In this document: piece by piece, positions 8,832-38,521 of the stretch
Position numbering within the stretch: position 1 is the first letter of the stretch
How the letters are laid out: each line of letters opens with the position of its first letter
DNA from: Basidiobolus heterosporus B8920
Taxonomy: Eukaryota > Basidiobolomycota > Basidiobolomycetes > Basidiobolales > Basidiobolaceae
Direction of reading: 5' to 3'
Length of the DNA stretch: 38,529 nt
NCBI GenBank assembly: GCA_000697455.1
Contig: JNET01034587.1
Coordinates: forward strand, 1 to 38,529
Notes under the pieces: model-generated
Seen by the model: only the letters and a program-made list of their open reading frames with translations
Databases searched by the model: none
Told to the model about the DNA's origin: nothing
Made by a program: the position numbers and the translations under genes

Positions 8832-11240
8832 TCAGGGATGTTTACAAAAGGTTGGTTCAACATCTCGCCCATTAATGTTGATATCTACATTATCTTCAAT
8901 GGCCGAAGGAACCGAATCCTCATTCTCAAAGTCAAGGAAGCTAGAGAAGTCCTCTTCGAACTCTTCGCCGTCTACTTCCGAGCCTTCTTCGATTAAATAA
9001 TCCGTTTCGGTTTGAATCTCGTCAAACTCGTTGGAATTTGGCTTGCTCTTGGATGGACGACGTGGGTTGTTGGAATTTTCAAGGGCGGAGTAGCTCTTCA
9101 TCTGCTTTGATTGTAATCCTAGTATTTGATTCAACTGATGCCCAACGCCAGAGAAGAAGCTCTTGCTAGTTGGATGTAAGCAGCGAGGTGCGATCCCAAT
9201 GTTCGCCACAGTATTATCGCGGGGCTTTAGGCTAGCAGCCCGAGACCGAATAAATTGCCGGAGTCTTGAAGACACTTGAGCGGGATTGAAGGCGGCGATG
9301 TGAGGGGGCAATTGGGAAGGAAAGTAATTAGGGAGATCATAGTCAAGAAAAGGCCCGAGCTTTTGCTGGAGAGAGCATGTGGCAGCCAATTGGCGAGCTC
9401 TTGGCAAGGGGATCCATGTACCAAATAAAGGGCTCTCTCGACGACGAATACGAATCCTTCCGATCTCCAAACTTAGAACTACGGCTTGTTCTTTTTCACT
9501 CTCCACGCCGCCGACACTAAGTAGCGTGGTAGCATTGACATAGCCCGAATCGTAACGGCGGAGTAATTGATAAGTGTTGTTGAAGCCATCGGCTGGACCA
9601 ACAGTAGTGACGTAAAATGGTAGAGACTCCACCATTGTTATAAATATTTGAGGTGAGATGGGGGTGATCGATGAGATCAGCATGTTAGGATTGGACTCCG
9701 GGCCACTGATGTTCCGGGTCTTGTTCTTTGTGTTTTTTGATTTAGGCTTGGCAGTCATAATGGGGCCAGGAATCTGCAGTGGATGTCTGACTTGGTCCTG
9801 AGGTGCTGTAGGCTTGACCACTGCAGATGTATCTTTCCCCAAGTCTTCATCGAGGCAAAGAAACGATGTGACCTCATCGTCTGTCTGTTGAGCTACAACG
9901 CTCGCCTTCGTAGGAAGTGTGTAGGCCAAATCACTAGAGTGCTCGACTGAGGCAGTTTTGAGCTGATCGAGAGATCTGTCGCCAAGTAAATGGGCCTCTT
10001 TGATTGGCTCCGGGTTCGTAATTAATTTATCCATAACGGAATCAACGCTGGCATTTTCATGCTCAAGACTACCCTCGTTAATACCTAGAAGCTCGTCTAA
10101 TTCAGGGATCTGTAGATTTTCAAGGCGAAGCATATCATTATAGCCATATTTGGTGTTGGGTTCGTTTTGAAAGCCTTGATTCTCCCAAAGATCGATAACG
10201 CTATCAAAGAAGGGAGACGGCTGGACTGTAGAGATGGCATCCAGAACTTCGGAACCCCTTCTTGGTGACGGCTCTGGGGTCAAAAGTGGTGACGCACTAC
10301 TGATCCCACTCTCAAAGCTGCTATGTGAAGAATCGGAATGAAATTCTTGATCTGACAGCAGGCTGGAGACCCCATTGTCAACGCTATCGGTCAACAGATC
10401 AAAATCGAGATTACCGTTCATCATGTCCTCACAGAAGTCATTCTGCATGTCACTCTGCTCAACCTCACTCTCACTATCAAAGGATTCCGCATCGGATTTG
10501 GAATCCGAATCAATGCGATCATCGATAGATCCATCGCTATCGTTGGGTGACTCTTCGCTTTCATATTCGATGGGGATGATGGTGTCAAACTCATAAGCAT
10601 CTCTGCTTTGGCCGAAGAGCTCCATACCAGTCAATATTCCATTGTCGGTGACCCAACTATCATCAAAAGTCAGCACTTCTGACTCGTCAGACTTAAGTTT
10701 CTTGACCGACTGTTCCACATAGGAAGATGGCCTTTTCTTATTCAGCGAGCTATGAACATCGTTGGATGATTGAAGTCTGTTACAGTATGACAAGTAGTAT
10801 TTAGTCTTCTCTGGATTCGTCTGATCCTCCAGCTTGGATAGAAGCAAGGGAACAGTAGATTGGAGCGCGGAGACATACTCAAAATACTGAGATATGCGTG
10901 CGGAAACTGTGCCAGATGGATTTGATCCACTGTATATACGTATTATAGTTAGCACTGGCTTTGGAGACATTGAATGAAAAGACGGTACACAGTGGCCGAC
11001 CGTTAGTTAGCGAAGAAATGCTTACCCAAGCACTGTTAGTTCATATTTCAGTATACAAGTGGCTATTTCTTGAGGGGAGCAGGGCTTGTTACCCAGCAGT
11101 ACTAACGCCTTTAAAATAGCAGCAAAAAGCTTATCCTCGGAGTGGGTATTCAACTCCCATGATACTGCGGACTTGTGAACGTTTGGAAGTTGACCGCCTT
11201 CGAAAAATTGGGGGAAACTTTCAAACGCAAGCTCGGCCAT
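8832..11240 (-). CDS. Putative transcription regulator: GDS1-type winged helix plus APSES/KilA-N-like domain
   Basis: Exons 11240-11026 and 10929-8832 encode 770 residues; the 96-base intron has donor GTAAGC, branch GCTAAC and acceptor CAG. The ATG at 11240 is the first in frame. The intron splits an N-terminal winged-helix module (KPCSPQEIATCILKYEL then GTVSARISQYF) that resembles the GDS1-type domain of fungal regulators. A long acidic Ser/Asp/Glu-rich region follows (about 100-330), a likely disordered activation segment. Near residues 504-615 is an APSES/KilA-N-like block (FYVTTVGP, YQLLRRYDSGYVNATTLL, GTWIPLPRARQLA), where the GTWIPL/ARQLA end is typical of APSES DNA-binding proteins. 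The tail is again acidic. It probably acts in the nucleus as a sequence-specific regulator; target genes are unknown. Domain names rest on motif recall, so the exact family is less certain than the general role. Confidence 0.7.
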
Positions 11241-14951: not shown

Positions 14952-17900
14952 ATGTTAAAAACTCCCCCTTCTATACATTCTGCTAAAGAGTGTAACCCTT
15001 CAGTAAATATGCCATACCTCAAGTTCAATAAAAATAATGTGGACAGCTATATTACCGAAACGAAAAGTCCCGGACTTGCGGTTTCTGAACTAATTGAAGT
15101 GAAAGATTGGTCTAAAACTTCTTTAGGCTCAAAAGAAAATTGGTCTGAGCACTTGAAGTGGATTCTCAACCTAATCCTTCATTCCCCTTTCCCAATGGCG
15201 GTATATTACGGAGAGGACCATCTGCTTTTGTATAACCAGGCCTGGTTACCAGTACTTGGGGGTAAACACCCTGAAGGTAACATTACTGTTTTTGGATTCC
15301 AACTTGACTTATTAATAACATTATTTACTAAAGCTTTAGGTGAACCCGGCCACAAAGTATGGCCTGAAATATGGCAACTTGTTGAGCCAATGATAGCGAA
15401 AACTTATCGAACTGGCGAGACCACATATGTAGACAATTATCTTTTAATGCTTCAACGTGGTGGTTATGAAGAAGAGACTTGGTTCCGCTTTTCGCTTTCA
15501 CCCATTTTCAACTCAGATGGAAAAATCGAAGGCGTACTGAATACCACGTATGAGCAAACTCAACAATTTATTGGGCAAAGACAGCTAGCTGCGTTGAATG
15601 AAGTTGGTAAGCTTACTCGTGGAGCTCAAACTCACTTGGAAGCTTGTGATTTGGTTATCTCTGCACTCAAGAAAAACAACACAGATGTTCCTTGGTCAAT
15701 GATATATTATCCTCATCAATTCAACAATGTAAACACACTAAAGCTCGTCTCGAGTAGTTTCAGTGAAGACACTGGATGCAGTGCACCCAACCCCTGTATC
15801 TCTATAGATTTGGTAAGCGAGATCGATTGCTTAAATCTATGCCCGAGCTACTGGCCTGTTACTCAGGTTGCTACCTCCAGAGAAGCTGAGCTTACTAGAC
15901 TCCCAGACAAGACAAGGGCAGTGTTTCTTCCACTCTTTATTTCCCGAGCTTCAAAGGAACATTTAGTACCAGTGATGGTATGTGGGCTTAACCCCTCAAG
16001 GCTTTTCGATGATAACTATCAAGATTTCTTATCGCATCTTGCTGCATATGTCACTGTAGCAATAAACTCGGGAATTACATGTGAAGAAGAAAAAAAACAA
16101 CTTGAAAATCTAGCCGAGCTAAACCGTTCGAAGACGGCATTTTTTCAAAATGTATCTCATGAGCTTCGAACACCCTTAACATTGATTCTTAGTCCGATGG
16201 CGCAAATATTACTTGATCAAGCGCTTCCCTTCAAGATAAGGAAGAGCCTGTTGATGATTCAGAGGAATGCCAGACGTCTACTCAAATTGGTGAATACCCT
16301 TCTTGAGTTCGGGAAGATCGAGGCGGGAAAGAGCACTGCTATCTTCCAGAAAACCCCCGTTTCACGGTTTACTCGAGAATTGCTTGCATCTTTTGATTCG
16401 ACAGCAGAAACTTTGGGAGTGAGATTCTTAAGTGAGATTCCAGAGATCCTCACTGGACACCCGGTCTATCTTGATCGAGATATGTGGGAGAAAATTCTCT
16501 TCAATTTAGTGTCAAACGCCTTCAAATTTACCAAAAATGGCTCCGTGACGGTTAGACTACAACCAGATGTCCTTGAGATGGCTGACTCCCAAGTGGTAGA
16601 AGCTATTCATTTATCGGTAGCAGACACTGGAGTGGGAATTTCAAAAGAAGACATGAAACACTTATTCAATCGCTTTTATTGTGTAAGAAGTTCTGAGGCT
16701 CGCTCATACGAAGGCACAGGGATAGGGCTTGCCCTTGTCAAAGAGTTGGTCACCTTTCATACCGGAGTTGTAACTGTGAAGTCGCAAGAGTCGGTTGGAA
16801 CAACATTCGATGTGTTTATTCCGACCGGAAAAGCACACATTTCGCCGAAATTTATATTGGAAGACACTGATACATCCCACAGAGTTGATATCCAAAAAAC
16901 TGCAACACTTTTTATAGATGAAATGCAGCAATGGACCTCCACAAATCTGATGCCATTATACCAAGACAACTCAGATGAAAAACAATGCATCTCTCCTACC
17001 GTAAGCACCACTTCAAATACATCCATGTCTAATTCACAAAAGCCGTGTGTTCTTTTGGTGGATGATAACTGTGATATGCAAAGATATATACACTCTCTGC
17101 TTGAAGTTGAATTTGAAGTCCTGTTGACATCGAATGGTCTTGAAGCTTTGGAGCTGATGAAATCTCGCACACCGGATCTAGTTCTCACAGGCAAGTATTG
17201 CTCAGCTTATTTCATGATTTCGAAATACTTCTAACCATCGAATTCATAGATATGATGATGCCTCATTTAGATGGCTTGGGGTTGCTAAAAGCTCTAAGGG
17301 AAGACCACAGAACATCTACCATCCCTATTATCTTTTTGTCAGCTCGAGCAGGAGCTGAAGCCTCCATAGAGGGTGTAGAGGCTGGTGCCGACGACTATCT
17401 GGTGAAGCCATTTTCGACTCAAGAGCTACTTGCTCGTGTACGCACCAATATCAAATTGAGTAAACTACGACACGAGCTCCTAGAGCAGCAAAAGATGCAA
17501 ACAGAGTCCAAGCAAATGGTACTCAATATATCAGGGAAAATCCGGGCTAGATTTGGTCTTGAAAGTATCCTAAAAGAAACAGTCGATGAGGTCAGAGCAG
17601 CCTTGGACGCTGACGGATTACTGATTTGTCGTAATGTCAACCAACAACGGGAATTCACTGTCCTAGCAGAGTCATGTTGCTCCAACTCCGTATTCCGCTC
17701 ATTCGTAAATCAAACCTTTGGTTATCGCCCAAGCCAAGTAATTAATGAATATAGTACGGTCGATCCAGCGGAACTGTTTCCTCCTGATTTCAGTCAAGAT
17801 CATTGCTTTTGGGGGGTTCCGATTGTACTGGATGATGAACAGTGGGGCTGGATTATAGCGCGCCAGAGATCTGGTCTTATCTGGAGTAAGCTACAGTGCT

Positions 17901-19821
17901 CTCTGATTGAACAGATAGCGACACAAGTTGGTCTGGCCTTATCTCATGATAAATTGGTAAGCGAAAAAATCGATCAAGAAATTCAGATTGAGGCGGTGAA
18001 TGCTGCCAACAGAGCAAAGAATGTTATTCTAGCGAACACCTCGCATGGTATGTTTATATCTATTTCACAATATGAATGTGTATTTATTGCTCACTTCTAG
18101 AAATTCGCACGCCACTAAATGCGATTATCGGCTTGGTGAGTGCTTTCGAGGATACGCAGTTAACCCTGGAGCAAAGAGAAATGCTGAAAATCATGCTGAC
18201 TGCTAGCGATGTGCTACTGAGGGTGGTCAATGATATTCTTGATATGGCCAAATTGGAGGCTGGCAAAATCAAACTTAAGCCTATGGATTTCAATCTTCCT
18301 GACTTACTGCAATCCACTATGGATGTTTTCTCTGAGCAAAGGGAAGAAAAGAACCTGAACCTGACATGCAGTTACAGCCCACATGTTCCAGAACTTGTCA
18401 TTGGAGATTCGGCTCGCGTCCAACAAGTATTAATGAACCTCTTAAGCAACGCATTTAAATTCACGGATCAAGGAGAAATTTCGATCAATGTAGATGTCGT
18501 CAAGCCCCGGAAAGAATCCCATCCTTCAGACACCAAAAAAGTGGTTCTCCGGTTTCGAGTTACGGACACTGGCATTGGTATTCCCAAAGAAGCAATCAAC
18601 ACACATCTTTTTCGCTCCTTCCATCAAATTGATGGTTCGATGACACGCAAATATGAAGGTATAGGGCTCGGATTAGCCATTTGCAAAGAGCTAGTTGAGA
18701 TTGGAGACGGAGACATTGGAGTTGACTCCACTCCTGGAAAAGGCTCATCTTTCTGGTTCACCTGGCATTTCACTACACCGGACACTAATCTGGTGATAGA
18801 GAGCCAATATCTTGATGTAATTCACACGCAGAAATGCCTGACCATATGTTCAGGCGATGCTGAGGATAATTCTATTGCTATGCTAATTCAAGATTTAGTC
18901 AGATCTCATACACACGCCAAAACGTATAGCGAAGGCCTCAATTTCTTAAAGCAAACTCAATCGTCACCGGATCCCTTTCAGTGTGTGTTTCTCAGCGTAT
19001 TGGGGAATGAATCCGTCAACTCTCTCTCGGACAATGTATCCAAATTTAAAGCGCTGGATCCCGCATTACACGTTATGGTCATCTTTCCATTATCATCCCT
19101 TCATTTAGCGCAATCGGCCGTTAGCCATTTCGATGATACTGTCGTGGGGATGTCAATGCCAGTGACCAAGTTCAAGCTAACATGTGCTTTACTCAGCCTT
19201 TATCAAATGAAACTAGGCCTCGAGTTAGAGCAAAGAAAATGTGGAGAACCACCGATCTATACCGAGCTCCCAACATCTACCACTCTACCTGATTCAGATC
19301 TATCTGTACGTGTTTCCTCAGCCAAGAAACCCTCTCACAAATCATCATCAATATCTAAGGGGACCCGAAAGATATCACGCAACTCCAAGAAAGAAGAATG
19401 CAAAATAGGTTCTAATGATACTATCACCCACATTAACGAAGCCTACATGATACTAGTAGTAGAGGATAATCCAGTCAACATGGAAGTGGTTCATAGACAG
19501 TTGAAACGCTTGGGCTACCGATCAGTAGGTGCCAAAAATGGTGCAGAGGCAGTTGACATCTTAAAAAAGGCACCTGAAGACACGTTCTCATTAGTTCTGA
19601 TGGACTGTGCCATGCCTGTTAAAGATGGATTCGAGGCTACCAGAGATGTCAGACAATTCTTGCGAGCCCCCATCCGAGATATCCCAATAGTTGCATTAAG
19701 TGCCAGTTGTATTGAAAGTACGCAAAAGGAATGCATCGTATCAGGAATGAATGATTTCCTAGCCAAGCCAGTAAAACTTGGAGAACTAAATCAGATGCTT
19801 CAGAAATGGTTAGCAAAGTGA
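14952..19821 (+). CDS. Dual hybrid histidine kinase (HK-REC-HK-pseudoREC-REC)
   Basis: Exons 14952-15276, 15334-17190, 17250-18047 and 18101-19821 encode 1566 residues. Intron 1 (57 bases) is stop-free and in frame, recognised because removal restores [17 protein letters not shown]. Intron 2 is GC-AG. Intron 3 is GT-AG. Order: PAS-like sensor (about 40-250), GAF-like region, HisKA with His384 ([10 protein letters not shown]), HATPase (N box [27 protein letters not shown]), receiver with Asp728 ([13 protein letters not shown]), GAF (about 820-960), second HisKA with His993 (NTSHEIRTPL), second HATPase ([21 protein letters not shown]), a receiver-like segment lacking the Asp (about 1240-1355), and a terminal receiver with Asp1495 ([19 protein letters not shown]). 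It has no membrane segments, so it is a cytosolic sensor that should feed an HPt protein such as Ypd1. The signal is unknown. Confidence 0.9.
15277..15333 (+). other. Stop-free 57-nt intron in the kinase sensor domain
   Basis: Donor GTAACA, branch-like TTAATAAC, acceptor AAAG. The length of 57 is a multiple of three with no stop, so retention would insert 19 residues (NITVFGF... in content) in the PAS-like domain. Removal joins HPE to ALGEPG, the motif expected in this family. Confidence 0.8.
17191..17249 (+). other. GC-AG intron splitting the phospho-acceptor Asp codon
   Basis: The donor is GCAAGT after ACAG and the acceptor TTCATAG, 59 bases. Joining gives G+AT, the codon of Asp728 in LVLTDMMMP. 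No GT donor nearby restores this motif. Retention meets a stop at 17232-17234. Confidence 0.85.
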
Positions 19822-22054: not shown

Positions 22055-23266
22055 ATGGCTAATAGTGAACTTGGTTTAATTCTAGCCGTGTCATTTTACG
22101 ACTTCTTTATTCTCTTGACAGTTGGCCTTCTAATATACTACCGAAATGATCCATACTTTACCCATCGCAACATCCTTATAACCTCAATCATCGGCTTAAC
22201 CTCGGCAATTCTACTTCCTGTTGTTGTTTTCATCCCTTTCATTCCACCTTGGTTATTTCTATATTTTGTCAACATTTTCTTCCCTCTTCTATTCATTTGT
22301 GTCACTGGGAAGGTAATCCAACTCACATTTTTGTACTACTCCAGTCAAGCCAAACTTAGCCGGGGCGAGGACTATGCTTCAAGTGAAACCTCACAAACTA
22401 TCTTGGCTAGCTCTGGAGTAAACGTCTTTTATCGATACCAGCGTTATTTCAACAATCGCGTATGGCTCGCCTGGTGTGGAGTAGAACTCACACTCTATCT
22501 TATTCTGACCTCTATTATACTCTTCACCGCACCCTCACTCCCAACAGACTTCTCTAATATCCGGACTATGGCTTTTGCACCAACATTCATAAGTTATTCT
22601 TTTCATATTTTGATACAATGGCCACTCTTTGTCTGGTATCTGCGATATGTGGATGACGCCTTTCACATTCGATTCGGACTGCTTATAGTGGAATTGGTTG
22701 AGGTCTTCAGCTTTGTTGGGCTGATACTTCGTATATCCATTGACTACATCAAAAATCATTGGGAGATTTACGCTATATATTGCGCCGTGCGAATTATTTT
22801 AGTTCACATTGCTGTTATAGTGATTCCACTTTGTCGTCGTCCACGAACACCTAAAGTCGACAAATCATTCCATCCAGGCTATGATATCAGCTCACTACTC
22901 TCAATCATGAAAGATCCGGTGTTGTACGAAGATTTCAAGAGTTTCTCTCTGCGTGTTTTTGCCGTTGAAAATACTCTATTTTATCGGAAATGTATGGATC
23001 TGAAGGCCAATAATATGTCAGCATCGGTCATCACTAACAAAAAAGAAGTTCACAACATATACAATATGTTCATTCGTCCCAATAGCGAGATGGAAATCAA
23101 CATAACAGAGGATGTCCAGAACCAGATCACCTTCATTATGATGAAACCTCATCTTGACGGATATCCAATAGATATATTCGACCAAGCAATGAACCAGGTC
23201 CTTGACCTCATTTACCAGGATATCTTCCCAAGATATTTAGCCCACAAAAACTACCTACGCGTTTAA
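22055..23266 (+). CDS. Seven-TM protein with C-terminal RGS domain
   Basis: A single exon encodes 403 residues. Seven hydrophobic segments can be placed at about 6-29, 39-60, 64-95, 135-156, 172-199, 207-229 and 236-261. A basic patch (LCRRPRTPK) follows, then an RGS domain at about 278-400 (LLSIMKDPVLYEDFKSFS, FAVENTLFYRKC, ending in DIFDQAMNQVLDLIYQDIFPRY). RGS domains speed GTP hydrolysis by G-alpha, so a receptor-like membrane part with an RGS tail, as in fungal GprK-type proteins and plant RGS1, suggests ligand-controlled shut-off of G-protein signalling at the plasma membrane. The ligand is not predictable. The gene is intronless, in contrast to most of its neighbours. Confidence 0.8.
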   Translation: MANSELGLILAVSFYDFFILLTVGLLIYYRNDPYFTHRNILITSIIGLTSAILLPVVVFIPFIPPWLFLYFVNIFFPLLFICVTGKVIQLTFLYYSSQAKLSRGEDYASSETSQTILASSGVNVFYRYQRYFNNRVWLAWCGVELTLYLILTSIILFTAPSLPTDFSNIRTMAFAPTFISYSFHILIQWPLFVWYLRYVDDAFHIRFGLLIVELVEVFSFVGLILRISIDYIKNHWEIYAIYCAVRIILVHIAVIVIPLCRRPRTPKVDKSFHPGYDISSLLSIMKDPVLYEDFKSFSLRVFAVENTLFYRKCMDLKANNMSASVITNKKEVHNIYNMFIRPNSEMEINITEDVQNQITFIMMKPHLDGYPIDIFDQAMNQVLDLIYQDIFPRYLAHKNYLRV

Positions 23267-23837: not shown

Positions 23838-26800
23838 ATGTTGGCTTCGGAAGAGGGTAATTGTCAATCTTCCTGTTAACTGCCTGAAGGTTTATATTCT
23901 AATATATACCAAAATCGGTTCCACTCTTGTAGATCCCAAGAGCTTCTTCGAGAGAACAATAGAGAAGGCAGGTCTGAAAGTAGCAGAGGACGCCTTTACA
24001 CTAGGTAGTTCTTTCAAAAAAGCCATTTTTCTGTTAAACCAATTGAAGCTTACATAGTCTGTTGAATTCTTAACCATAAGCCGTTGAGCAATCGATATTC
24101 CGTCGAAATATACAATTGGAAATTATCAAAGCGAATACAAAAAACAATGTTGTTGAGGATTTCATTCAGCAATTTGAAACATTCGTCGAAGATCTGAATG
24201 TTCTCAAGCTTTGTTTACAGCCCACCACCATCGCCGGCTCAATCAAAGGAACTTACACAACTGACAGCCTAACTCGAATTCTCCTTAGTATCGATTCTAT
24301 ACAACCAGACTTATTAGATTTGTTGTTGGAAAAGTTGACCCACTTTATCTCCGCTGGTGACGACATGTATGTAGATAGCATTATGCCTATATCCCCAATT
24401 ACGGCCACGTGGAATTCCTACTGATTCTATACTATCAAGCGAGTTAGAAAGTTTCCCAAAGTCAATTCTACACCAGCTGAGATGGTTGGATCACATAGTT
24501 GAACCCGAAAGATTGACTGCGAAGATCATCGAGGTAGTTTCCATTGACATGTGCACCAAGGGTGTATACAAGTTGCTTATTGAGTGCGCTATTTAGATCA
24601 TATCAATCACTCCCATCGAGATTCAACGAGAACTCATTGTAAATCTTCCAGAAATAGTAAACGACTCCGAACACAAGGTTCGCTCAGGTTTATGAATTAC
24701 ATTTAATCACCTGCAACAGCACCATTGACACGAATGAAAAATAAAGGTGGTTGTTGCAGAGTTACAGAACTTGATGGAGGAAAATGCCGATCTCATGGCG
24801 CCTATCCTTGACGCGTTGTCCAATCTAAATCTCCACAAAGAGCTGTTGGTAAGTCGGTTAACATCCATGCGTACACCTCGTCGTATACTAAAATAGCAAA
24901 CCTACAGGACAACATACGGGAACCTATAATAGATCGTCTTGAGTCTGCCGATCTAGACGACCTACCAATCATGATCAAGTTCTTGCTCCAGTCTGTTGAT
25001 GCTGACAACGCTCAATATGTAGGTATATGGGAGGCAAGGTCTTCAGCCGCCAATGCTGATCATTCCATCTAGGTTATCGGCCGTATCCGATCTAAATTAG
25101 ACTTAAAATCCATCTACCGTTTACGTGACGATAAACTGTTTTCTCAGAGTGCAAGCTCGAAATCCGCACAGAAGATCAAGAAGATGCCCGAAACCTTGAT
25201 TCTAGGTATTCCTTTAATATTAACATCTTCCTCGGTTCTCGCAAGTCTTAACATCTCTGGATAAGAATCTCTAAGGTCGGGGCTTCAATTCAATAAGATG
25301 CTTCGTGACGTCTGGCTCAAAGTTATCAGCGAAGTTGGGGATGAGCAGGACTACCAGCTGATCGATTTTATTATATTGATCATCATGCACTCATTGAAGA
25401 ACATCAAGAAAAAGGCTGAAAGTATATTTCGCAAGAAAATCTCTTCTGGTATCTTCTCGCTTGCCCTTCTTGAAGAGACCATTACCAATCACCATGAGGC
25501 CTTGCGAGAATACTTTGGCTCATTGCTCTCTCTTGCAGAAGCGCAATTACGAGCGTGTCAAAACAACATGATCCTTGGTCGGGCAGCCAGCGTCATTTAT
25601 GAGTCTTGTTTTCGGATTTTTGATTCGTATTATCGACAAGAGGTCATTGGTTCATTGGTAACTCATATCGGAAGTGGTGCTTCCTGGGAAATCGATACTG
25701 CATTAGATTGTTTGTTGAATATTGTTACTGCAAGTGCAAAGGAAGCGGTTCCCTTTTCTATATTTATCAAGGGAATTCTTGATTACCTTGACAACCTATC
25801 TATTACTCAGATCAGAGTCTTATTCAGCATCTTTAGCGCATTAGCTTCTGAGGTAACTATAAGTATAGACCGCACTAGAACGTAAGTCTTCTAATGTTCT
25901 TCTTTGGTCGGATTAGGGACAGAAAAAAGGAGATGATGGGATATTGAATGATCTCAATATTGTCATAAGAAAGCAGCTGTCAAGCTCAGTTGAAAAATAT
26001 CGACAAATGGGCGTTGTCGGGGCCTTGGCCATTGTTAAAAGAATAGGCTCCAAAGACAATGTGGCGTTACGAGCCGGAAGTAGTCGTACAGGTTTAAAGC
26101 TTGGTATCACTTGTAACAAGTTAGATTACTCTCTAACTGATTTCACATATCATAGATGACAATATCTCTCAGTCGCTGAAGAATCCTCAACTTCGCCAGG
26201 CAATATCTGTAATCGAAATGACCATGGAATCTTGCAAGAAGTCATCAGTTAGTTTCCACCTACTCCATCGGTATTGATAGTAGTAATATATATTGACATC
26301 TGCATAAGAGCTCACTAGCGCTAGCCTACGACGAACTGTCAGCCATTGTAGAATCCAACCTCTTAGATCAGCGTTTAGCTTATTGGGTCAACGAAAACAT
26401 CGCCTGCAACTTTGCAGATGTCTTTCTTTGCGAAAAATCAGAGATTTTCAACTCGGATACCAACACATTCCTTAGCACACTACCAACAGAAATATGGATG
26501 GATATCGATGGAGAGGTACTGACTAAACGATTTTTAACCATTGACCTACTCAAACCTATTGTTGATCAATTAATTCTTTAGAACTCAGCTGTTACGCTCA
26601 AAATATATCCGATGTTGAGTGGAACGTACAATAGCGAAGAGGACTTTGCCTCAACTGCAGGAATTCACTCTCAAAATCACTTGAGATACATGTGCTCACT
26701 ATTCAGGCTAATGCAAAACTGTACGAAAGCCCTAAACAATGGCTCCTTGGATGATATCGATGCGCTTCTAGGATGTGGGCTTGCTATGTATTCTAAAGTG

Positions 26801-29619
26801 AAACTCGAGGTTTGTTCAATCATTTTTCACACACAAACTAAGTCTAGTTCTTTTATTTCTGATACCATTTTCTGTAGCATGCTATATCTGGCCAAACAGA
26901 GAGTATGAAAACTTTGACATACTCGACCCTCTTCTACGCAATTAACTGGTGACTATTGTCCCTTTGACCTATATTTCTATCGCTTTATCTCATGTTTGGA
27001 TTTCAAAGGTTCCGCGAACTTCTGAATGCATTCAGTGATCAAAAGGATGAAGAGATGTTAGGTATCCCATATATTCACTAATTTATGGAAATAGCTACTT
27101 TTATTCAATCTAACCTAAATCAATATCAGGAAAGTGTCTTTCTCGTTTGAGCCATATTGAAGCTCTTGAGCGTGAATTAGAGAGCATCCTCTCTTACATG
27201 CCCAAAATAGCTCCCTCACTTCATCTACTCGATTCCTCTGAAACTCAGGAAGCAAACGGTGTGAATCGTTCAACGCAAAACAAAGAAATTTCTATTCAGG
27301 TGCGACTTTATGGTTGTATTCTTTTTCCAACAAATATTCATTGTTGCGTAGGCACCAAAGAAGCGACATACGGAAAAGATTGGTTCTGACAAAGAGGATG
27401 ATTCAGCAAGTACAAAAGTACCGGGCCCTATGAGTGTCACTGGAATTCACACCCATTTCAGAGAACTAGAGGTACACTCGCTGTAGTATCATGAATCTCT
27501 CAAGTACTAAGCCTTACTATTTGTAGATGAACGTGTTCAAACTGCTTCGCTGTGAACAGCTGATCAAAGCCAGCTCTGACCAAAACATCCCACAGCAAGA
27601 CAAGTTTGCATTAACTGTATGTTCGTGAAAAAAAGCTCGAATAGTTCATTGGCAATTCACTAACGCGCACTTGCAACAATCTTAGTACTCTGATTTACGT
27701 TTTCTTATGAAGGATCTGAGAGAGAAGCTTGCATTCAAACTTGGACAAACATCCTCCTCAGCATTTGGAAGGCCAAAAAAGAAAGACAACGAGCAAAAGT
27801 CCCGTTTCCAGATATTAGCACGTAAAGCACCGCAAGAAGTAATGACAGAGGTAGGTCATCCGTTTTCTGGTTTTGGGCAACAATTACTTAGTTGATTTAA
27901 TGGACCAGGTCAACGAGATTTTACCGTATCTTTGTAGACATCTTGAAAATGCAGCGCAGGAAATTCAAGTCTTGGTATGATTAACGAATTTTTGTATTGA
28001 TCAATTGAAGCTTATTTCTTTGGCCTAGGGAACGGATGGCGAGACGACATCGGAGGTATTCTTCGGGCCTTTAAGATTTGGTTTATCATAATTCACTAAA
28101 ACCGTATATTATTGGTCAACAGCGGATTGAGGTTGAATGCGTTGAAATTATACTGAACGTCTTGATTATCATCTTTTCGTGGCCTGATCTCTCGAGTCCG
28201 GACAATGAACCAATCCTTTCTGTAAGTGATTTACCGACGATTTGCACAATACTTGTTAGAGCTATCCTCGTACTGACGCACTGGCTACGACTAGAAAACA
28301 TTGAATTGCTTAGCATCCAGAATCAAACTATCGACCGAATCTCCCACGCACCAAATCCAGGAGTTGGTCCAGGAGGCCTTCGAATATGCTTACAAATTTT
28401 CCGAACTTTTCCAAACAGCTGGCTTATCCATTCTACTACACAAACTATTGGTAAAGATCATGGAACTTGCGCCACAAGCCCAATTACTCTCACCCGAAAT
28501 TGGAAAGTTCTCAGAGAAACTTCTCACCTGTCAATGGAATGACATTCTCTTCATCAAGGTAGTATCATTGTTCTCTAGTCGAAGCCTGAAATGTCGCTGA
28601 TTTCTTTATGTGGTTAACTGTAGAGCGATGATCTTGGGTATTTGTTGCGGCAACAAATCATTCATTCGGACAATCCCTTAAACACAATTGAAGAGTACGC
28701 ATCCGTCATTCTTCCGGGCCTGTTCTCCGGTGATGCTGACCTGTTAGAAGACCATCCTTTACTTACTCGCGAAACTTTTTTGACCTTCTACAAGACGGTA
28801 AACAACGAATTGATCAACATAGTCGGACAATTCGAAGACCGGTTGGATGAACGAGATTCATCGATCTTTCACATATCCAAGATTGTGGTCAGTTGGCAAA
28901 ACTTGGTCGGATTTGCCAAGAATTGCGAAAAACGACCCTTACTTACGCTTGTACTGAAAAATGGACGCACCTTCATCGAATTATTCCTCAAAAAGATCAT
29001 GCCATGTTTAGATGTCAACTTTCGTACATACCGAGATGAAATCCTTTCGATTTTTAAGAAAATTCAAAATGCCACCCGTATCCTGCAAAATGTTTGCTCC
29101 CACTCCAAGGTAACCAAAGATTTGGTTCTTACCGCCAATGTACCATTGATGCGTAAAGCTTTGGAAATGCTACTATTTAGGGTCAAGGCCTTATTAGAGC
29201 ATAACCACTGTCTAGGTGCATTCTGGCTAGGAAATCTCAAACACCGGAGTATTACTGGTGAAGAAGTATCCTCCCAAATTCCACAAGATGATATTCAGGA
29301 ACAAGAATCTGAAGAATACGGCTCAAAGCCTCATTCTCTTTTGAAAAGTGCCAAAATTCGAAGAAAACGTAAGGCGCCAGTCAACTCCAATACTACCTTG
29401 GGCGCGGAGGGCTATGAAGAGGAAACCAACAAACACATTCGAACTGATGATGGCCCAGAAAATAGAAAGCTATCTAATACTCAAATTTCAAACAGTGATG
29501 TTGAGGAGGAAACTGCTGAACAATATCTGAATTTGGAATCTATCGAGGACGATATGGAAGAGGAGGAGGAAGAGGAAGAGGATGATGTACAAGATTCTGA
29601 TGGATCTATTTTAATTTAA
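23838..29619 (+). CDS. FANCD2: FANCD2, Fanconi anemia group D2 protein
   Basis: Exons: 23838-23856, 23933-24004, 24081-24366, 24440-24533, 24597-24677, 24747-24848, 24908-25018, 25073-25205, 25266-25852, 25917-26103, 26156-26247, 26309-26515, 26582-26809, 26878-26948, 27009-27061, 27130-27299, 27352-27471, 27527-27616, 27686-27850, 27909-27974, 28029-28055, 28123-28221, 28295-28558, 28624-29619. They join in frame to 1439 residues (human about 1450). FANCD2 motifs run in order: HQLRWLDHIV, VNLPEIVNDSEH, DDLPIMIKFLLQSVDA, QEVIGSLVTHIGSG, FIKGILDYLDNLS, VIRKQLSSSVEKY (Lys514 matches the monoubiquitinated human Lys561), KPFL-free C-terminal helices, and CLGAFWLGNLKHR. The tail has a basic NLS-like KIRRKRK and an acidic run. 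With FANCI it clamps DNA at interstrand crosslinks and stalled forks. Some splice sites are weak (GTTCGC, GTGACT donors; AAG acceptors), so single boundaries may shift. Confidence 0.93.
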
Positions 29620-34680: not shown

Positions 34681-37600
34681 CTACCTCTGAACACGGAAAA
34701 TCCCCCAATTCTCCAAGAGGAACTCAGTATTCAACCAACCGGTACGGTAAGCCCAATCACCCGTATAGTTACTGGCGAAGAACTGGTTAGTAATACTGGT
34801 GCCTGTACTGATCGCGTTGTTCACTGAAGAAACACCGTGTTGTGGTGCCTTAAGTTGGTCTTCCCAGGCGTGACCGTGAAGGTGGAAAGGTAGTGGTCTT
34901 GGCTTATCTAGACCACTAACAACACGAAGAATTTGTTGAGTGCCGGGAAGTGCGTGGAACACTTCAGTCGATGGCATACTGTTTTTCAACCAGTTTGGCG
35001 CAGAAGCAGGTTGGTTTCGATAATTCATGGCCTTCAATCCAGCATCCTGAAAAGCAACAGTGGTCTCATTTGCCACGGGTACATTAGGGCCTGATAAAAT
35101 TTGAACCGGTGACTCGTTGGCATATGGGACAGGTGCATTGACTTGATTATTTTGGAACAGACGAAGACCAGATTGTAAAACTACAACCTTATCTTGGTAT
35201 AATAGTCTATTGTGTTTTGACGACTTGCCATAGACATTAGTGTGATAGTACACATTAGATTCGGGACCGTACCATTTCTCAGGCACTTGGTGAGAGTCCA
35301 ATATTACTAATGCCCCGATTAGCCCGTGATGCTTGTGATTTCTAATATCTGCGTGATCTTGTAATGGAAGAGCTCCCAAGTGCTGATCTGCAAACAGACT
35401 GTAGGTAATTGTCTTACCCGGGGCAACTGTAGAGTCAGGATTGTAGCCAATATTCGTGCCATCATCGTACCGGACATCATGCTGAATGAGTGGCGCATGC
35501 AAGGACACTCTGCTGGATACCTTACGTTCTGGATCATCCACCGGCACAGGAACAGCAAATGGCTCGGGGCTGAGGCTCTTTGGAAGAGCGTTGTGCAGTT
35601 CAATGAGTATGCGTTCGCCGACCAATCCTCTGATGATCAAGGGGTCGACTTTGTTATCCTTCACGTTGAAGCACTCACCATGCTGAGGCTTGACGATCTT
35701 GGGTGAGCGAGGCTCTTGATATCCTGTCAAACAGTAAATCAGGCCGAAAGGATCACTCCAGCCATCAGAGTTGTACACGATCTCCTGGCGCTTAGCAGTT
35801 ACGAAGTACTTTCGCTCACCACTCACCTTAGACCTGTATTTGCTGGCCGCTCTGGTGAGACTCTTACCCACACCCTTTGACTTTCTGGTATGTGCGAATC
35901 GCTCCTTGACGATGCTCTTCAGTAAGGGTGAGTGGTAGAAGGAAGACACCTTCTCTTCAGGACCTGGGATTCGTGGCAGATGCTTCTGAGTGGAATCATA
36001 TACACGAGTGATACCCCAGTTACCAAGCCATAAGTCGTCAACACCACCCAGTTTGTAGAGATGATCACCAGCACTATAATCAGCCTGAACTCTGAATGTG
36101 AATCCTTCAGAAACTCCGATAGTCTGCTGACTGGTCACATTAACATTTGCCAAATCTTGGAATTTTTGCCAACGCATTCCGTGCACTTCAAAGCTGTGCG
36201 GCTTATCATGAGCGCCTTGTACCAGACGTACAATAATGTTGTCTCCTTGATAGGCCTCGAACAAAGTTGTAGAAGGATCCCCATATTTGTTCTTACTGCT
36301 AAACCACTCGGATGGATCTAATCCCTTCCTCTCCGATAATGGCTCGTTTCGGTAGTTTAGTACCACAATGCCCTGGTCTAGAAATTCGTTTTGGCCTGGT
36401 GGTGGATTGATTGCGGTACCGTTTGCATAGAACGCTGGCGTATAATCGCCAATAAAGACGACTTGTTCACGGAATGACTCTTCGGGCCCAACAACCACAG
36501 CACTTGTTGTGTACCGTTGCTCAGTCTTTACATCCTTTGGACTTAAGAACTTCGAGCCTTCAGGAGCTACAGGGGCTATTCCGTAAAGACCCTTCTTTTG
36601 ACGGTAATTGGCGAATAGATGGTCATGGAAGAAGATGTGACCCAAGGCATCATCAACCCACCAACGGTTGAACAAGTATTTACCAAACCGAGCCCCGCTC
36701 AAATAATTCCAACCAACAGAAGCACCATCACTGGTGAGAACATCAAACTTGACTAGATGTACGTGCATACCAGCCTCACCCTCGTGAGCTACTGCCTTAC
36801 ATCTAGGGAAATCCTGATCGAATGGTGTAGCAGGGATACTACGAGGGAGGTTGTTGGTGTACTTGCTGACGGCAACGCTGTTCTGAGTTACACGCATCGT
36901 AAAAGGCTCGTACTTAGCAGGACGGCCAGGGTCGGGCTTGACAGTTTCTTCTGCAGCAAACATGTGGCCATATGGATAGTGCCATCCATATTTGTTGTAC
37001 TCAACGTCGCGGGTCAAGATACTAATATTAAATCGATGAGTGTCAATTTTTTTGGGTGTCGGGATTAAAGTGAAAAAGTTTCCGGGTTGAGGATCTGAAT
37101 TCATATTTGCGACTTCGACTTCGGTAGCAGGACGATAATCCGAGCCTTCAGGAATTTCACCCAAGAGCTCTACTGGCCATGGAACTCTAGGAGACTTCTG
37201 ACCAGGTGTGCCAGCAATAAAGTTGGGATAACCTGGATTCATTTCAGATTTGTAGGGAGGATGAGGTCTGCCTGGCAATGGAATCAATTTAGGGATCGGT
37301 GTACCGTCGGGATAGGTGTAACGGCCATCTCATAACGATCCAGGACGCGCATCATACCCCACATTCCAGTTTCGAAGTGAACATACAGATGACAATGGAG
37401 AATAACATCTCCGATCAATTTCAGTCTAGAACCAGCTCCGAAGTGAACATCCAAGTCCCACGTGGTCAGAGGTGACAAAGAAAAGGAATCAATAATGTCA
37501 CTCTTACGATCACCTCTGCCTGAACTCCACTGGTGACCGTGTAAATGGAAAACGTGAGTTTCAGTTACACCAGTGTCGATAACCCTGTATCTGACGGGGT

Positions 37601-38521
37601 CACCAGCATATGCTCGGAAAATAGGAGTAGCCGGATCACCAAACAACCAACTGGAGTGATGCTGTTCTTCACCATTCACATCTGACACCAAGCCCTGGTT
37701 GATCATTCTCCATAACGCCAATTCTCTGTTTTTCATTGGCTCTGAACGGTAGTTGAAGAAGTTGATAACAGGGACTCCTGTACTGTTGTCACCAGTACAC
37801 GGATCAACAGTAGGCACAGCATTGTTCTTGATAGTCGTCGATCTTGGAAGAAGAGGGTAAACTCTCTGAATGGACAATCAGGGTGTGCATGCTGTCTCTC
37901 TTCACCATAGAAATCATGAACTTTCGGACATCCTCCGTTCAACGGGTATGGATGAATATCGACATGTGTACCGTCAATCGTTGGCTTTCCAGTAACAGGG
38001 TCGGTCCACAGAGAACCTCTGGGCTCGACAATAATGGCTCCGAATAGACCATGAACTACAGTACCGGCCGATGACCCGTCGTAGCTACCACCGTCAGAGA
38101 TCAAGTAGGTTCCTTCCTTCATGCATGGCCAGATGTATTCTTTCTCTTCATCTGTGCTGATCAGGCTACTGTAGTTATCGCCCACAGCGGTTCCATCACT
38201 CTTGATGTCATATCCGAAGAGGTATGGGTGCATCCCAACCTGACGACCCTTGATATAGTTTGTAAATTTGACATGCATCTTGTCACCTTGGTTACAGCGA
38301 AGCACTAGAGGAGTGACTAAGGGATCCATTGGCAGATTGCTAGAGTTCTGACTCAGCAACCCTAGAAGATTTTCACGATAAGTGAGAAGGTGTTTTAAAT
38401 TCTTCTTCAGCGTAAACATAACCCCATCCTCGTCATAGTCACCCCATCTGTTGGAAACCAATGGCATATCTATCGCTGCTACTTCGTAATAACGTGTCTG
38501 AGGTTGGAGCCTCTTTGGCAT
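34681..38521 (-). pseudogene. MnxG-like giant multicopper oxidase with two frameshifts
   Basis: Three overlapping minus-strand frames (38521-37733, 37877-37284, 37287-34681) together give about 1275 residues of one multicopper oxidase. Cupredoxin copper motifs: HPYLFGYD, HGLFGAIIVEP (about 38040), VFHLHGHQW (about 37540), HCHLYVHFETGM (about 37380, the HCHx3Hx4M type 1/3 motif), MHVHLVKFD, FFHDHLFANYRQKKGLYG (about 36610), EVHGMRW, DHADIRNHKHHGL and FHLHGHAWE near the end. Motif order and size resemble bacterial MnxG/McoA-type manganese or copper oxidases rather than fungal laccases. No intron is seen over 3.8 kb. The frame slips between about 37822 and 37846 and again near 37325-37335; each acts like one missing base, and no intron explains either. 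The visible ATG (38521) lies 8 bases from the window edge, so the true start may be outside. Either a decaying gene or local assembly errors. Confidence 0.75.

Follow-up and report, generated by a model that had tools for sequence, protein, structure and literature searches.

The steps of FA (Fanconi) crosslink repair are established in vertebrates and Dictyostelium, and the locus described here raises the question of whether a fungus of the genus Basidiobolus carries an intact FANCD2 with its ubiquitin-acceptor lysine and, if so, in the company of which partners. We examined the gene within a 38,529-nucleotide stretch (hereafter the window; contig JNET01034587.1 of the Basidiobolus heterosporus B8920 assembly), in which an initial annotation had proposed a full-length FANCD2 of 1439 residues.

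Gene model and identity of the FANCD2 locus

To describe the gene, we built a splice model with two Basidiobolus proteins as guides. This model came to 1454 aa and, after correction by hand at three junctions against the B. meristosporus protein P0001, yielded a final gene of 24 exons encoding 1435 aa (Table 1). Its ends (ATG at 23838, stop codon through 29619) coincide exactly with those of the initial annotation, whereas the residue count is lower by four. A separate model based on codon usage (1388 aa) was dropped, as several of its junctions were wrong. All 23 introns of the protein-guided model are of 52–76 nt (median 64) and bounded by GT-AG, 19 of them would introduce an in-frame stop if retained (read in the incoming frame), and every exon is open, with no stop across the entire coding sequence.

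Table 1 Coordinates of the FANCD2 gene in the window and of the FANCL gene in the same assembly
Feature	Position	Strand	Basis
FANCD2 gene, ATG to stop (24 exons, 1435 aa)	23838..29619	+	protein-guided splice model, PF14631
Exon 10, contains ubiquitin-acceptor motif VIRKQLSS	25917..26091	+	splice model
Lys514 codon AAG, aligned with human Lys561	25971..25973	+	splice model and alignments
Exons 12–14, mostly missing from public B. meristosporus P0001, present in B. ranarum P0002	26309..26948	+	alignment; blastp gap
Last exon, with conserved C-terminal AFWLGNLKHRSITGEEVSSQ region and acidic tail	28624..29619	+	alignment
FANCL gene, 9 exons	G000:C123:2323-3889	minus	FANCL_C matches on contig C123

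The Pfam FancD2 model (PF14631) matches residues 7–1334 over profile positions 43–1417 of 1418 (853.4 bits, E = 4.4e-256), and a match of this strength across nearly the whole profile does not arise by chance. On the same spliced protein, FANCI_S2 reaches 22.5 bits, below its cut-off of 37.8. Furthermore, a profile built from 22 FANCD2 proteins matched seven PDB sequences, all of them FANCD2, including the FANCD2 chain of 6VAA (which we take to be human) at 1547 bits over chain residues 42–1436 of 1451. The matched structures (6VAA, 6TNF and others), presumably all vertebrate FANCD2, match the profile over nearly their full length, although the two vertebrate proteins that we aligned, from Xenopus and Heterodontus, are only 32% identical to the window protein. 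Judged by these profile matches, the window protein is a FANCD2 rather than the paralogous FANCI; the proposal of a full-length FANCD2 in a fungus is borne out by an intact gene that PF14631 matches end to end.

The acceptor motif VIRKQLSS occupies residues 511–518, with the lysine at 514. The 6VAA chain contains the same motif, and its Lys561, presumably the monoubiquitination site of human FANCD2, aligns with Lys514, in agreement with the correspondence initially drawn. All 121 aligned proteins have lysine in the acceptor column, namely the window protein and the 120 listed of 407 homologues, which came from scoring only the 7993 candidates sharing most words with the query. Over the 35 residues around Lys514, the window protein is 100% identical to B. 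ranarum, a value above that of 94% of 987 comparison windows; its 94% identity to B. meristosporus exceeds that of 63% of 1202 such windows, so that conservation here is not unusual in the comparison with B. meristosporus. Relaxed selection on the acceptor region, together with a genome lacking FANCI or FANCL, had been named as a finding that would count against the initial reading; the identities to both species give no sign of such relaxed constraint.

Origin of the gene and its neighbours

P0001 (B. meristosporus CBS 931.73) and P0002 (B. ranarum) represent the same gene, colinear with the window FANCD2 and with an identical VIRKQLSS. By blastp, P0001 is 91% identical over residues 1–633 and 79% over residues 754–1435 (88% across the multiple alignment), and P0002 is 86% identical over residues 1–1016 (84% in the multiple alignment), although P0002 ends early, unlike the complete window gene. 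Proteins from Mucoromycota (Mortierella, Phycomyces, Rhizopus, Mucor, Scutellospora and others) are likewise FancD2 with the lysine but are more distant, at 34–38% identity in the nine aligned. In a maximum-likelihood tree of 22 hand-picked rows (the window protein and 21 of the 120 listed homologues), the Basidiobolus clade including the window protein and the split between 14 fungi and 8 animals each have support of 100/100; the placing of Basidiobolus deeper among the fungi is weak (59/89), and Dimargaris forms a long branch.

The initial annotation had named animal contamination of the contig as fatal to its reading. An identity of 32–35% to the eight aligned animal FANCD2 proteins is what could be cited for an animal source of the gene or contig, but the 88% identity to B. 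meristosporus, the short introns and the fully supported grouping with Basidiobolus lead us to reject this source as vanishingly improbable. Instead, the identities and the tree position indicate that the contig derives from a species of Basidiobolus or a near relative rather than from an animal.

Relative to the window protein, P0001 has a gap of ~120 residues between residues 633 and 754 (blastp), comprising most of exons 12–14, and it also lacks a short C-terminal AFWLGNL segment; the window gene is complete in both respects. These missing parts of the public protein are the one point in favour of regarding the window FANCD2 as a decaying pseudogene, a reading that we reject as extremely unlikely given that its exons are all open and 23 of 23 introns are GT-AG. 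Moreover, the ~120-residue block is kept in B. ranarum P0002, and the AFWLGNL segment, before which P0002 ends, is present in Mortierella, Phycomyces and Nematostella. With block and segment present in these species, the gap in P0001 probably reflects a fault of exon prediction or annotation rather than decay.

The window carries several further genes. An RGS-domain ORF lies upstream of FANCD2 (22055–23266, plus strand), and three plus-strand ORFs at 14952–19821, with the domain order HisKA-HATPase-receiver-GAF-HisKA-HATPase-receiver, resemble a hybrid histidine kinase of two modules, which two short introns probably divide. Also present are a DUF3533/ABC2-type membrane protein (3–1247, plus) and, at 8832–10970 (minus), a protein containing the GDS1 winged-helix domain. 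At the contig end, three minus-strand ORFs (34681–38521) correspond, in order, to a manganese oxidase MnxG-like multicopper oxidase, their best stretches matching residues 3–176, 215–356 and 372–995 of PDB 9BXA (156, 231 and 438 bits), an MnxG that we take to be bacterial. This stretch has 47% G+C compared to 41.5% for the window. The gene, which has frame changes between its ORFs, may have been acquired from bacteria; among the matches listed in our literature search, no title concerned a fungal MnxG.

FANCL and the search for further partners

FANCL, for which the initial annotation had suggested searching the same genome, was found on contig C123 (Table 1). Its translation comprises 384 aa with the last exon read through to the stop, and searches used 368 aa of it, cut where the FANCL_C match ends. 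The four domains d1, d2, d3 and C all score above their cut-offs (PF09765, PF18890, PF18891 and PF11793), the composition of a FANCL E3 ligase that has three UBC-like domains and a RING at its C-terminus, and the protein matches FANCL of PDB 6SRI at 319 bits. FANCL_C is matched to profile position 61 of 69 and the final residues are not fixed, such that the C-terminal end is uncertain, as is one 39-nt intron. A PP2C gene on the same contig gave eight matches (threshold E 1e-30), four from Basidiobolus at 57–74% identity and four others at 38–41%; since the best matches are to Basidiobolus, C123 is, by this comparison, Basidiobolus-like, and its PP2C is less close to that genus than the window FANCD2 is.

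Among the 120 FANCL homologues listed of 478, none is named Basidiobolus and none exceeds 48% identity, the best listed match being from Acaulospora; some of these rows are unnamed, and proteins far from the query length were not candidates. As a genus-mate should rank first, the simplest reading is a missing annotation or a gene model in fragments, while loss of FANCL in the two sequenced Basidiobolus species could also account for this result.

The FANCL contig also holds a 19-base sequence at G000:C123:3994 (also L026:3994) and at C123:4450, the latter copy coming solely from L026+L027 as joined. We take this sequence to be the Nextera transposase end, and its presence points to adapter remaining in the assembly. 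The window contains no copy, with up to one mismatch allowed.

An exon-by-exon search of the assembly returned no match to the FANCI Pfam models S1, S2, S3, S4, HD1 and HD2 at E up to 0.1 (0.001 for S4); these are six of the seven models named in PMC11061109, without PF14674. This search is insensitive, because it proceeds exon by exon and because FANCI_S2, despite its weak match to spliced FANCD2, missed that gene in the genome; the FANCI models also matched in none of 14 control genomes. By the same search, FAN1 (VRR_NUC) had no match in the assembly, the VRR_NUC model having matches in 5 of the 14 control genomes, and UQ_con gave ten matches on six contigs, none of them UBE2T-like by eye, in an assembly whose completeness is uncertain.

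The assembly comprises 8.1 Mb in 428 contigs. For the proteasome, 14 subunit genes are expected, and six matches were found on only three contigs. For the chaperonin, 21 matches fall on nine contigs: typed by eye, five loci are CCT-like (mutually 26–32% identical) and one is Hsp60-like, two more contigs (C34 and C251) hold matches in pieces, of which the C34 loci that were translated yielded no usable frame, and the match on C360 lies in a 1522-aa frame that is probably another kind of protein. Most chaperonin genes thus seem to be present, and the two completeness gauges conflict. Given this conflict and the insensitive search, we do not take the missing FANCI, UBE2T and FAN1 matches as absence.

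A lineage that kept FANCD2 and FANCL and lost FANCI, leaving FANCD2 to act by itself or as a homodimer and its ubiquitination altered or lost, would agree with the silence of six FANCI models in a method that recovered both other genes exon by exon. We consider this decidedly unlikely: the genome is intron-rich, the models were equally silent in all control genomes, FANCI_S2 overlooked even the window FANCD2, and the assembly may be incomplete by the proteasome gauge, though most chaperonin genes were found. In addition, Barua et al. (PMC11061109) report FANCI from fungi that diverged early. Very unlikely, too, is a Basidiobolus FANCD2–FANCL module in which FANCI has been lost and FANCD2 is ubiquitinated without its usual partner. 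The initial annotation had extended the acceptor lysine to a persisting ubiquitination system; for FANCL, with its four domains, this expectation held, whereas neither a UBE2T-like E2 nor FANCI was seen in the insensitive search.

Place in the FA pathway of early diverging fungi

Taken together, the intact gene, its acceptor lysine, the two Basidiobolus orthologues and the four-domain FANCL in the same assembly make it highly likely that the locus is an ordinary, vertically inherited and functional FANCD2 of a Basidiobolus species. Counted against this explanation are the FANCI, FAN1 and UBE2T-like E2 that the insensitive search did not detect, the lack of a Basidiobolus-named FANCL among the homologues listed, the lower similarity of the PP2C neighbour of FANCL to Basidiobolus, and the unexceptional identity to B. 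meristosporus around Lys514. By analogy with animal and Dictyostelium biology, FANCD2 would pair with FANCI, and the pair would clamp DNA at interstrand crosslinks. FANCL, with a UBE2T-type E2, would then add one ubiquitin to Lys514, which would lock the FANCD2 clamp on DNA, and the locked, ubiquitinated FANCD2 would recruit unhooking nucleases. This FANCD2–FANCI and FANCL–UBE2T crosslink mechanism is partly restated in PMC11061109.

That study scanned 183 fungal proteomes and reports, for early diverging fungi, a minimal FA pathway of FANCD2, FANCI, FANCL and UBE2T, with the ID complex lost and FANCD2 missing in Dikarya (Barua et al. 2024, PMC11061109). FANCD2 and FANCL are common to this pathway and the Basidiobolus assembly. 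Its main text does not name Basidiobolus, and our literature search found no paper joining Basidiobolus and Fanconi. FANCD2 is already named in database records for Basidiobolus and Mucoromycota. In view of these records and the published report, FANCD2 in Basidiobolus is correct but already known in kind; Dikarya lack FANCD2, but the novelty initially seen in a fungal FANCD2 does not stand beside the reported occurrence in early diverging fungi (PMC11061109).

What is added is a complete gene model of FANCD2 in Basidiobolus, where the public model from B. meristosporus probably lacks some exons, and the placing of a four-domain FANCL in this lineage, with none named Basidiobolus among the database matches listed. 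The FANCD2 and FANCL result is useful detail and no surprise, and FANCD2 agrees with the view in print of a FANCD2 crosslink-repair branch that was present in the fungal ancestor and was lost towards Dikarya.
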